From positions 1 through 36,276 of IMG/VR virus record IMGVR_UViG_3300034121_000862: a stretch of 36,276 bases of DNA. The stretch is one strand, 5' to 3'. Position 1 is the stretch's first letter. Every line of letters starts with the position of its first letter. This document shows, in pieces, positions 14,476-35,597 of this stretch. The translations under genes and the position numbers were made by a program. The DNA comes from a virus. A model generated the notes under the pieces. That model saw only the letters and a program-made list of their open reading frames with translations. It did no database searches and was not told where the DNA came from.

Positions 14476-16008
14476 ATGGCTTTACCTAATATAACATTCA
14501 TCAAAGGACAGGGCGGCTTAGGCCGTGCCCTTCCCGGTCAAGACCACATAAGCGGGATGCTGTTTTATACAGCCAACCTGCCAAGCGGCTTTACCACAAC
14601 AAGCCGTGTAAAGGCATTGTATTCGGTATCGGATGCCGTTAATGCGGGTATATTGAACGATTACTCCGATGCTACCGCTTCAACAGGAACTGTAACCATT
14701 ACGGCCGCAGGATCGGCGGGCGATACCATTCGCGTTCGTTGTTCAAGCGTGTCGCTTAGTGGTGCGCTTTCTACAATTACATTAGGCGAATATACACGCG
14801 TGGGTACTGAGACTGCCGCGCAAGTAGCCACCGCAGTAGCCGCTTCGATTAATGCCAATACGCAAAATACAGGCTTTAGCGCAATCGCTTCGGGTGCAAT
14901 CATTACGATTACCGCTCCGAAGTTTTTCGGCACGTTTCTTAACAGCGGAACGCCTTATACTGTACAAGTAACAGGCGGTATAACAACCACCATTGTACAA
15001 AACGTAATACCCGGCGTTGCCTCAGCTCAAGCAGTATGGCACTACCACGTCAGCGAGTTTTTCCGTATGAACCCGAAAGGCATCTTGTACGTAGGATTTT
15101 ACGCCGTGCCTGGTACTTATGCCTTCACCGAAATTACGCTCATGCAGAATTTTGCACAAGGTGCTATTCGTCAAATTGGTGTATTCAAAACTGCCGCTTA
15201 TGCTGATAGCGACATCGCTTTAATCGATGCTGTATGCAAGGCAAACGATGCCATTAAGCGCCCGATTAGTGCGGTTTATTGCGCTAACTTAGTTGGTACT
15301 GCCGATATTACTACATTGGCTACATTGGCAACAAAAAGCAACAACAAGGTATCGGTTTGTGTTTCGCAAAGCGGTAGCGGTCAAGGCTTGTTATTGGTGC
15401 AAACCAACAGCACATCGATTACTCATTTAGGCACCATTATGGGCACCATTTCACGTGCAAACGTGAGCGAGTCAATCGCTTGGGTTAACCAGTTCAATTT
15501 GAGCGACGGAGTACAAAACGAAGTGGCTATGTTCGCAAATGGTCAGTACTACGAAACCTTTGCTTCGCTCGATTCTACCTTAGAAGGATTGACCGACAAG
15601 CGATACATCTTTGTGCGCAAGTTCAACGGCATTTCCGGTACATACTTTAACGATAGCCACACGGCTATTGCACAAAGTAGCGACTATGCCTACATCGAAA
15701 ACAACCGCGTTATCGACAAGGCCATCCGCGTATTAAACGCCGCTTATTTACCATTCTTGAACTCGCCTATTTCCTTGAACGCCGATGGCACATTAACCGA
15801 TGTTGCAGTGGGTACGTTTGAAGGTGTTGGTGAAACAGCTCTCGATGAAATGGTTCGCTTGTCGAACTTGAACGCCTACGATGTTGTTGTTGATCCATCG
15901 CAAGATGTGTTAAGCACTTCGGAGTTGGTAGTCGCTGTATCGTTGCTCATGCCCGGTGTTGCCCGTCAAATTATCATCCCTATTACCTTCACTCAATCAA
16001 TCGCTTAA
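14476..16008 (+). CDS. Contractile tail sheath protein (DUF2586-like)
   Basis: 510 residues. The N-terminus (MALPNITFIKGQGGLGRALP, GMLFYTANLP) and C-terminus (VGTFEGVGETALDEM, then VVVDPSQDVLSTSELVV and a final beta strand IIIPITFTQ) match the Bacteroidota DUF2586 sheath family. Residues about 70-170 are a Thr/Ala-rich insertion domain, likely the outward-facing decoration. The following 138-residue tube gene confirms a contractile tail. Confidence 0.85.
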   Translation: MALPNITFIKGQGGLGRALPGQDHISGMLFYTANLPSGFTTTSRVKALYSVSDAVNAGILNDYSDATASTGTVTITAAGSAGDTIRVRCSSVSLSGALSTITLGEYTRVGTETAAQVATAVAASINANTQNTGFSAIASGAIITITAPKFFGTFLNSGTPYTVQVTGGITTTIVQNVIPGVASAQAVWHYHVSEFFRMNPKGILYVGFYAVPGTYAFTEITLMQNFAQGAIRQIGVFKTAAYADSDIALIDAVCKANDAIKRPISAVYCANLVGTADITTLATLATKSNNKVSVCVSQSGSGQGLLLVQTNSTSITHLGTIMGTISRANVSESIAWVNQFNLSDGVQNEVAMFANGQYYETFASLDSTLEGLTDKRYIFVRKFNGISGTYFNDSHTAIAQSSDYAYIENNRVIDKAIRVLNAAYLPFLNSPISLNADGTLTDVAVGTFEGVGETALDEMVRLSNLNAYDVVVDPSQDVLSTSELVVAVSLLMPGVARQIIIPITFTQSIA

Positions 16009-16011
16009 TCT

Positions 16012-16428
16012 ATGGTACCTTTAATAAACGGCGTTGCCTATTCGTGGAGCACAATTAACGTGGTAATCTTTGGCAGTCAATTACGTGGCATTACTTCGGT
16101 TGAATACAACAAGAAGCAGAATATCGTTGATAACTACGGAGCTGGGCAATACGCCGTAAGCCGTGGTTATGGTAATTTCGAGTGCGATGGTTCAATTGAA
16201 ATGTATGCTGATGAGTTAAATAAGCTCATTGCTATTTCGCCGAATCGTAATCCTCTCGAATTGCCTTTCTTTGATATTGTAATCATGTTTGCCGGTGTTG
16301 GTGTTGCCCCTGTACGTGTAACTTTGAAAGCCTGTAACTTCATGGAGTTGCCAGTAGCTGTTGCGCAGGGAGACACATCAATCAAAGTAAAAATTCCTTT
16401 GAAGATTGCAGATGTCGTAAATAACTAA
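16012..16428 (+). CDS. Tail tube protein
   Basis: 138 residues, 3 bases after the sheath gene. Beta-rich, with a YAVSRGYGNFECDGSIEM core and a final VKIPLKIADV strand that would complete the tube subunit barrel. Size and position (sheath, tube, chaperone, tape measure) are diagnostic for contractile-tailed phages. Confidence 0.8.
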   Translation: MVPLINGVAYSWSTINVVIFGSQLRGITSVEYNKKQNIVDNYGAGQYAVSRGYGNFECDGSIEMYADELNKLIAISPNRNPLELPFFDIVIMFAGVGVAPVRVTLKACNFMELPVAVAQGDTSIKVKIPLKIADVVNN

Positions 16429-16442: not shown

Positions 16443-16799
16443 ATGGAAAATCAAAATACTCTTACCCCCTCAGAAATTAGCGCATACGAAGCGAAGGCAG
16501 TTGAAATTGCAAAAGAACGGGGAGTGCCTAAGGTGCTTCCCGTTGTTTTTATTCAGCCCGAAACGTTTAAACGCATCGTTGCTTATTTGCGCCAACCGAC
16601 CTTTGCTGAGAAACTTCACGCAATGGACCAAGCGTTAACAGCAGGCGTGTATATGTCAGCTTATAACTTATCGGAATTGCTTTTAATCAAAGACAAATCC
16701 GATGCGATTATCGAAACCAACGATGATGCACGCATGGGAGTTGTTGATTACTGTATGGGGCTTGTTTCTCGCTATCAAAATCAATTCGCAAAAAAGTAG
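16443..16799 (+). CDS. Tail assembly chaperone, unshifted product (gpG-like)
   Basis: 118 residues from ATG 16443. A helical, mostly polar protein (SEISAYEAKAVEIAKERGV, then PEVLPVVFIQ-type region and YMSAYNLSELLLIKD) placed between tube and tape measure, the standard place of the tail assembly chaperone that coats the tape measure during assembly. The last codons are GCA AAA AAG TAG, which contain a -1 slippery heptamer (16790-16796), so a fraction of ribosomes should make the longer product. Confidence 0.8.
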   Translation: MENQNTLTPSEISAYEAKAVEIAKERGVPKVLPVVFIQPETFKRIVAYLRQPTFAEKLHAMDQALTAGVYMSAYNLSELLLIKDKSDAIIETNDDARMGVVDYCMGLVSRYQNQFAKK

Positions 16800-16966
16800 A
16801 ATCGGTGGCGATTCACCCAACAGACGAACGCCACCATTACCGCCGAATGAGCGCAATGATAAGAGGGTGTTTAGGGCACGTACCAACCGACGAAGATGAC
16901 TACGCAAAAGCATGGGCCGACGTTAAATATTACCTTTCAATTGTATCACAAGTAAAGTATGAGTAA
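16443..16966 (+). CDS. Tail assembly chaperone, -1 frameshift fusion product (gpGT-like)
   Basis: Predicted programmed -1 frameshift at A AAA AAG (16790-16796). After the slip, reading resumes at 16796 with GTA GAA and continues through 56 codons to TAA 16964-16966, giving about 174 residues. The extension begins VESVAIHPTDERHHYRRMSA and ends VSQVKYE. It is fully open, rich in charged residues, and overlaps the tape measure ATG by 8 bases. A 56-codon extension between the chaperone and the tape measure is just what the lambda G/GT arrangement predicts. Confidence 0.8.
16790..16835 (+). promoter_or_regulatory. Programmed -1 ribosomal frameshift signal (slippery site and stem-loop)
   Basis: Slippery heptamer AAAAAAG at 16790-16796, read A AAA AAG in the zero frame, the same heptamer used in E. 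coli dnaX. After a 7-base spacer comes a perfect 7-bp stem GGTGGCG (16804-16810) / CGCCACC (16829-16835) with an 18-base loop. The zero-frame TAG directly follows the slippery site. Confidence 0.8.
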
Positions 16967-18491
16967 TCAACAAGTTCAATATACGCTGTCGCTTAAAGAC
17001 GAGCTTACAAAAGGCTTAGATAAAGCCGATGCTTCCGCTAAGAAATTAGAGGGAACAATGGGCGGTTTAAGTATTGGCATGAAAAGTATTGCCGGGCTTG
17101 TTGCAGGCTTAGGCATAACGGCTTTCCTTGGCGAATCGGTAAAAGCATTCGACGAAAGCGAAAAGGCTATTGCACAACTTCGGACCGGACTACAAAGCAC
17201 TGGGAATGTTGCGGGCATGACTGCTGATGATTTTTTAAAACAAGCAGCAGCACTACAAAAGATTACCACTTATGGCGACGAAGCTATTGTAGGCGTTCAA
17301 TCGTTACTCGTAACGTTTACAAATATCCGTGGCGAGATTATGCAGAACGCCACTCCCGCGATTTTGGACATGGCTACGCGCATGGGAGGCGATTTACAAG
17401 GTGCAGCGGTACAATTGGGCAAGGCGTTAAACGATCCAATTCAAGGCGTTAACGCGCTTCGACGTGTAGGCGTATCGTTCAGCGATCAACAACAAAAAAT
17501 GATGAAAAACTTTGTTGAGACAAACCAATTGGCGAAGGCTCAACAAATGATTCTATCGGAGTTGAATAAAGAGTTCGGCGGTTCAGCAGAAGCGGCCGCA
17601 CTTGCTGGGCTTGGTCCGTGGGAACAACTTAAAAACACATTTGGAGACGTACAAGAAGAAATAGGACGGTTAACGCTTGACTTTGGCACCATGCTACTGC
17701 CTGTTATTCGTGGCGTTGTTTCGGGTATATCCAATATGGTTACTTTCATACAACAAAATAAGAAGCTACTTAAAGAACTTGCTATTGTAGTAGGCATTGC
17801 CGCTACTGCATGGGGTGTTTATACCCTTGCCGTAAACGCCTCGGCTATTGCTACCAAAATATATACAATGGTTCAATTAGGGCTTAATGCCGCCATGACC
17901 GCTAACCCAATTGGATTGCTTATTGTTGGCCTTGCCGCTTTAACGGCCGCCATCGTAGTAGCCTATGAAAAATCAGCGGTATTTCGTGCAGGTTTATGGG
18001 GTTTATGGGGCGGTATTAAAGCCGTAGGCGAATCAATAAAGATGTACTTTGTCGGACTAAAAGATGTGCTTGTTGGTACATTTACTTTAGATCCTGGACA
18101 AATCGAAAAAGGCTTAGGCGGTATGGCTTCGGCTGTGTTCGGTGCCGGTGGGCGTATTGCCAAAGGTGCACAAGAAGGTTACGCGGCAGGCATGGCCGAC
18201 TTCGCTAAGGACCAACAAGCCAAAAAAGAAGCAGAAGCAGTGGGCGGTACAGCTACTCCAACGGCAGGGCTATCATCGGCAGGCGCAAATGCTGCCAACC
18301 CTACACCAAGCAAATCAAAATCAGTTGCACAAGGCACTAAAGTAACCACCATCAACGTATCAATAAAAGACCTTATCGGAGAGTATAACATGAATGTAAG
18401 TAACGTCCGCGAAGGCTCTGAAAAGGTCAAACAAATGGTTGTTGATGCCCTTGTTGGTGCTGTAAATGACTTCCAATTAATCGTACAATAA
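16959..18491 (+). CDS. Tail tape measure protein
   Basis: 510 residues, following the frameshifted chaperone. The N-terminal half is helical/coiled coil with typical tape-measure sequence (ESVKAFDESEKAIAQL, LGPWEQLKNTFGDVQEEIG). Two hydrophobic segments lie at about residues 272-292 (LAIVVGIAATAWGVYTLAV) and 314-336 (PIGLLIVGLAALTAAIVV), and may insert in the host membrane on ejection. At roughly 1.5 angstrom per residue the length predicts a short tail, around 75 nm. Confidence 0.88.
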   Translation: MSNQQVQYTLSLKDELTKGLDKADASAKKLEGTMGGLSIGMKSIAGLVAGLGITAFLGESVKAFDESEKAIAQLRTGLQSTGNVAGMTADDFLKQAAALQKITTYGDEAIVGVQSLLVTFTNIRGEIMQNATPAILDMATRMGGDLQGAAVQLGKALNDPIQGVNALRRVGVSFSDQQQKMMKNFVETNQLAKAQQMILSELNKEFGGSAEAAALAGLGPWEQLKNTFGDVQEEIGRLTLDFGTMLLPVIRGVVSGISNMVTFIQQNKKLLKELAIVVGIAATAWGVYTLAVNASAIATKIYTMVQLGLNAAMTANPIGLLIVGLAALTAAIVVAYEKSAVFRAGLWGLWGGIKAVGESIKMYFVGLKDVLVGTFTLDPGQIEKGLGGMASAVFGAGGRIAKGAQEGYAAGMADFAKDQQAKKEAEAVGGTATPTAGLSSAGANAANPTPSKSKSVAQGTKVTTINVSIKDLIGEYNMNVSNVREGSEKVKQMVVDALVGAVNDFQLIVQ

Positions 18492-35013: not shown

Positions 35014-35253
35014 ATGCCAAACGACTACATTTTACAAATTGACCTTAACCGAGCTGACCAAGAGCGATTTATCGAAAAGATTCGCGCCAATGGTATGGAA
35101 GCTACTTTTTACAATATGCACCTAAAAATCTATGACCAAGAAAACGAGAAGGGCAATATTGGCGAAGCATACGAAAAACTCACTAAGGCCGAGTATGATG
35201 CAGGCAAACGTGGCACTAAAATAGGGTACATTCAGGCATTAAAAAAACACTAA
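35014..35253 (+). CDS. Unknown 79-residue protein
   Basis: A small alpha/beta protein (MPNDYILQIDLNRADQERFI, then a charged helical tail with YEKLTKAEYD). No family is recognised. Its own -7 box and position between replication genes suggest an accessory replication or regulatory role. Confidence 0.6.
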   Translation: MPNDYILQIDLNRADQERFIEKIRANGMEATFYNMHLKIYDQENEKGNIGEAYEKLTKAEYDAGKRGTKIGYIQALKKH

Positions 35254-35258
35254 AAATC

Positions 35259-35597
35259 ATGAATAAAATTAGCATTGCCCAATTTCGGGAACTTAAAAAA
35301 GGGGCAGTAAACAAGTACCGCAATAAAAAAGTTATTATTGACGGTATAAAATTCGATTCAATTAAAGAAGGTACCCGCTACGGTCAACTAAAAATGATGG
35401 AGAAAGCCGGAATGATTACCGACCTTAAATTACAGGTAGTATTTCAGCTGTCGGTATGCAAGTACAAGGCTGATTTTACATACTACCAAAACGATCACCT
35501 AGTAATCGAGGACGCAAAAGGGGTGAAAACACCCGCTTACAGACTTAAAAAAAAGATGATGTTAGCGGAATTGGGCATCGAAATTAAAGAAACATAA
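35259..35597 (+). CDS. DUF1064 nuclease-like protein
   Basis: 112 residues after a TAAAAATCATG start. It reads NKYRNKKVIIDGIKFDSIKE, then LKLQVVFQL, KYKADFTYY and VIEDAKGVKTPAYRLKKK, matching DUF1064 (PF06356). The acidic residues of FDSIKE, ADF and EDAKG have PD-(D/E)XK spacing, so this is likely a small phage nuclease of the resolvase type. Function is inferred from fold. Confidence 0.85.
   Translation: MNKISIAQFRELKKGAVNKYRNKKVIIDGIKFDSIKEGTRYGQLKMMEKAGMITDLKLQVVFQLSVCKYKADFTYYQNDHLVIEDAKGVKTPAYRLKKKMMLAELGIEIKET

Follow-up and report, generated by a model that had tools for sequence, protein, structure and literature searches.

The tail assembly chaperone gene of a virus record with a contractile-tail module very probably encodes two proteins, the chaperone itself (G) and, as a minority product, a G-T fusion made by a -1 ribosomal frameshift of the lambda G/GT type. 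Here, the window is the whole 36,276-base stretch that was analysed. Comparison of the window with its relatives supports the frameshift proposed in an earlier note: the heptamer near the chaperone stop is conserved, and the extension that follows it is conserved and is coding in the -1 frame only.

The tail locus and the proposed frameshift

The genes of the locus lie on the plus strand in the order sheath, tube, G, (T) and tape measure. The first encodes a tail sheath protein (DUF2586; 14476..16008; PHROG 907, PF10758), the presence of which identifies a contractile-tailed phage, and is followed by the tail tube gene (16012..16428; PHROG 4579, E 1e-18). The gene for the putative G-type chaperone (16443..16799) begins with ATG at 16443, comprises 118 codons and ends ...TTC GCA AAA AAG TAG, with the stop at 16797-16799. 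The slippery heptamer A AAA AAG occupies 16790..16796, where the zero-frame codons are AAA AAG, and is separated by a 7-nt spacer (16797..16803), the first bases of which are the zero-frame stop, from a stem. The 5' arm of this stem is GGTGGCG (16804..16810) and the 3' arm is CGCCACC (16829..16835), and three more inner pairs join 16812-16814 with 16826-16828. The -1 frame extension (T-type; 16790..16966) reads KK and then VESVAIHPTDERHHYRRMSAMIRGCLGHVPTDEDDYAKAWADVKYYLSIVSQVKYE, with its stop at 16964-16966. Past the heptamer it contains 56 open codons, and its end at 16966 overlaps by 8 bases the ATG (16959) of the tape measure gene (16959..18491; 510 aa; PHROG 27166, E 6e-49; Pfam TMP_2). 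When re-read from the sequence and its open reading frames, all coordinates in the earlier note (chaperone gene, heptamer, stem, extension and overlap) were correct, and the 7-bp stem 7 nt past the heptamer was fully complementary, as it had been described.

In the proposed mechanism, the majority of ribosomes would terminate at the TAG at 16797 to yield the 118-aa chaperone. In a minority, delayed by the stem (16804-16835) while tRNA-Lys occupies AAA and AAG, pairing would shift back by one base to AAA AAA, and these ribosomes would translate 56 more codons. The product would be a G-T fusion of 174 aa, with K-VESVAIHPTDER as the predicted junction-spanning peptide. By analogy to lambda, G would form a coat on the tape measure, with the T part bringing in tube subunits, so that the G:GT ratio would be set by the slip rate. 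The slippage itself, its rate and the G/GT chaperone function are what we infer from this arrangement; the lambda model and the shiftiness of A AAA AAG have been described (PMC5009743).

Frameshifts of the G/GT type are known in lambda, P2 (E/E+E'), HK97 and other long-tailed phages (Xu, Hendrix and Duda 2004, as cited in PMC3711429 and PMC5009743). The window resembles lambda in that the site lies between the tube and tape measure genes, the shift is in the -1 direction, the slip is positioned near the 3' end of G, and a short T extension overlaps or abuts the tape measure gene. In contrast, the slippery site of lambda is G GGA AAG while that of the window is A AAA AAG, the host group here is Bacteroidota, and the proteins share no recognisable sequence homology.

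The chaperone label is assigned mainly from the position of G, its size and the frameshift. Searches of G against the curated chaperone families in Pfam, PHROGs and NCBIfam gave no match, a sequence search of the PDB found nothing, and a Foldseek search of the PDB with an AlphaFold2 model of G (built from 23 relatives; pLDDT 91) gave no significant match. With VIA-align, the model scored Z 6.7 against 3fgx, an uncharacterised Bacillus stearothermophilus protein, Z 3.6 against YqbN (3klu) and Z 3.1 against the tail assembly chaperone of HK97 (2ob9). These resemblances of a predicted fold to prophage chaperone-like structures are weak, though compatible with a chaperone.

Elsewhere in the window, the ORF at 35014-35253 has GCA TTA AAA AAA CAC TAA as its last codons, which place A AAA AAA in frame at 35241, and the -1 frame stays open across the following ORF (35259-35597). 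This stretch (35014-35597) may be a second frameshift or simply a pair of adjacent genes.

Conservation of the slippery heptamer and the -1 extension

When the chaperone protein was used as a direct query, no relatives were found among viral contigs or phages. As this protein evolves too fast for a direct search, related loci were gathered through similarity of the tube and tape measure proteins, a procedure that is independent of the heptamer. Among the relatives are three isolates of the Winoviridae (FPSV-S1, pippi8-1 and lotta8-2) and 72 loci from viral contigs. Once truncated contigs and duplicates had been discarded, the set comprised 53 distinct sequences, the window included. The chaperone ORFs of eight loci (L003, L007, L078, L025, L029, L031, L033 and L037) were assigned by inspection. 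One pass of ORF picking demanded a -1 extension of 40-90 codons and an earlier pass did not; the extension is present at every locus with complete sequence, once extra inserted genes are recognised. Such genes were seen between tube and chaperone, as an additional small gene in L025, L029, L031, L033 and L034 and as a different one at the same place in L037. The heptamer and extension are retained in L025, L029, L031, L033 and L037, and the L034 contig stops short of that region.

The earlier note had named beforehand what would speak against a frameshift, namely relatives that lack the heptamer or carry stops in the extension. An in-frame A AAA AAR is found near the end of the chaperone gene in 53/53 distinct sequences, as A AAA AAG in 16 and A AAA AAA in 37, and stops interrupt the -1 extension in 0/53. 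By comparison, frame 0 is interrupted in 49/53 and frame +1 in 53/53. When chaperone genes are codon-shuffled, the last 12 codons contain an in-frame A AAA AAR in only 2.2% of cases, and outside this site the real genes have it at 8 of 5718 codon positions. In addition, the -1 frame is closed in 18/53 by a stop that ends 1 nt upstream of the heptamer, and entry into this frame must therefore take place within the A-run.

The extension can be aligned across all relatives, with a consensus of about ALIR-x2-FKIDP-x-LTDE-x-FA-x2-WG-x-LKY. Further support for its coding nature came from 58 gapless pairs of sequences, which are not independent of one another: differences at -1 codon positions 1, 2 and 3 numbered 524, 387 and 1229, and 71% of codons with a single change were synonymous in the -1 frame, versus 14% and 13% in the other two. 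By these comparisons, it is solely in the -1 frame that the extension forms a conserved protein domain, which is under purifying selection. Sequence evidence establishes that the signal is present, that it is conserved and that the extension is coding. Lysine-rich 3' ends and short open frames do arise by chance in single genomes, and the open frame behind the lysine-rich C-terminus could in principle be unused, whether fortuitous or a remnant. The retention of both heptamer and -1 frame throughout the 53 sequences, together with the purifying selection, already contradicts that reading and leaves it almost no probability.

It was also considered that the extension could be a separate small protein, produced by reinitiation or internal initiation past the chaperone stop. 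The window has a GTG in the -1 frame at 16805, where, judged by sequence, internal initiation may occur in this phage alone; an ATG overlaps the stop (ATGA) in L002, L039, L040, L044 and L076; and the pippi8-1 and lotta8-2 records annotate a distinct 42-aa ORF. However, the extension of 20/53 sequences offers either no ATG, GTG or TTG at all or none ahead of residue 20, so that much of the conserved domain would be lost, and a separate protein leaves both the phase of the A-run and its conservation unexplained. We regard this origin of the extension as very improbable. In the five ATGA loci, an A9 run is followed by TGA, so that slip site and -1 frame start codon coincide, and frameshifting and reinitiation could act together there.

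Slippage by RNA polymerase provides another route to the extension, in which A residues are added or dropped in the A-run and a fraction of the mRNAs carries G and T in one frame. Runs of 9 or 10 A residues are present in 30/53 relatives, and slippage of this kind is used by the dnaX gene of Thermus, a host with two lysine tRNAs (PMC5009743). In contrast, 16 of the sequences, among them the window, have a run no longer than A6 before a G. Polymerase slippage generally needs runs of about nine, and these sites are below that length. Moreover, A AAA AAG is the phase best suited to ribosomal slippage, and polymerase slippage would need no RNA structure downstream. There is accordingly only a slim chance that it accounts for the extension, and a ribosomal -1 frameshift is by far the preferred explanation.

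The Winoviridae Flavobacterium phages FPSV-S1, pippi8-1 and lotta8-2 share with the window the gene order, A AAA AAG at the gene end and a homologous extension. They differ in having a longer gene in the zero frame (175-180 aa) and a heptamer placed one codon ahead of the stop, and their records annotate no fusion. A search of the literature, which covered open-access papers, found no report of a frameshift for these phages. The earlier claim that known Bacteroidota examples are few holds for the literature searched; in sequence it does not, since the arrangement is standard among these phages. The arrangement itself is textbook, and what sequence comparison adds is its conservation across a whole group of Bacteroidota phages.

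Downstream structure and the upstream element

The 44 nt past the heptamer of the window fold with -14.8 kcal/mol, compared to a shuffle mean of -5.1 (z -4.9), and none of 200 dinucleotide shuffles was as stable. Across the loci, the mean folding z of 70-base stretches, taken from 4 bases past the first base of the zero-frame stop, is -2.66, with 38% below -3, versus a mean of -0.25 and 2% below -3 in background stretches of the same loci. Among the positions tested, this enrichment is confined to the region just after the stop, and most neighbouring offsets are near background. The nearest relative, L007, the chaperone of which is 78% identical to that of the window, has a stem with the same 7-nt spacing that is built from different base pairs (z -4.1). 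Folding of L003, the third member of the window clade, gave no stable stem, and other subgroups have two elements, a small hairpin near +5 and a longer stem near +27.

Fixed-column covariation of the stem in the best-sampled subgroup was not above shuffles, and a consensus fold of the stem across relatives failed. Because the stems shift register between relatives, the structure rests on the enrichment in folding energy and on the pair formed by the window and L007. The stem is, in short, supported by energy and position and not by compensatory change.

The heptamer had been called dnaX-type, and the signal as a whole fits this description in part. The heptamer is identical to that of Escherichia coli dnaX, and the stem begins a few nt downstream (7 nt here, within the 5-8 nt expected). 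The upstream Shine-Dalgarno-like stimulator of dnaX is, however, missing, and the gene and its purpose are unrelated. No Shine-Dalgarno-like element was found 5-22 nt upstream of the heptamer in the window or, overall, in 44/53 sequences, and even a 4-base motif precedes only 9/53 sites. This scarcity fits the ribosomes of Bacteroidia, in which the anti-Shine-Dalgarno is sequestered (Flavobacterium johnsoniae, PMC8710568).

Slip motifs in prophages and host lysine tRNAs

Searches of Bacteroidota genomes revealed prophages that keep the -1 extension while the slip motif varies. Their motifs include 15 A AAA AAG and also A AAA AAA, A AAA AAC, A AAA AAT, T TTT TTG, A AAT TTT and G GGA AAC, as well as the imperfect G GAA AAG and G GTA AAG. 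One prophage (L120, in genome G278) has the same -1 extension behind a chaperone gene that ends CTG GGG GAA GTT TAG, where a G GGG GAA slip site replaces the A-run. Five further tube loci from Bacteroidota genomes (L110-L114) have a small chaperone-like gene after the tube that lacks both heptamer and -1 extension. The next gene at these loci is unlike a tape measure, and they may belong to a non-phage contractile system.

A gene for tRNA-Lys(CUU) was detected in 0/13 hosts of A AAA AAG prophages versus 8/27 hosts with other motifs (Fisher p 0.037, with host kinship ignored), by a pattern that allows 3 mismatches and can miss divergent genes. One of the A AAA AAG hosts, G773, also has an A AAA AAA prophage. 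Slippage on A AAA AAG is known to need a single lysine tRNA (PMC5009743), and the split between hosts fits this need; the association is a lead only. It suggests a speculative and rather unlikely generalisation, in which the chaperone slip of Bacteroidota tailed phages is tuned to the lysine tRNAs of the host. Where tRNA-Lys(UUU) is the only one, a short A AAA AAG with a stem would be used. Where tRNA-Lys(CUU) is also present, there would be A9-A10 runs (acting through ribosomal slippage on A AAA AAA, or through RNA polymerase slippage as in Thermus dnaX) or other motifs. In neither case would occluded Shine-Dalgarno pairing assist.

With these results, a well-tested rule of tailed-phage gene expression is extended to a large Bacteroidota phage group that lacks annotation of the fusion. 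In addition, the compact natural set of sites (A AAA AAG, A AAA AAA, A AAA AAC and further motifs, some with a stem and some without) is a test bed for frameshifting, both on ribosomes with a sequestered anti-Shine-Dalgarno, as in F. johnsoniae (PMC8710568), and in hosts with one versus two lysine tRNAs.
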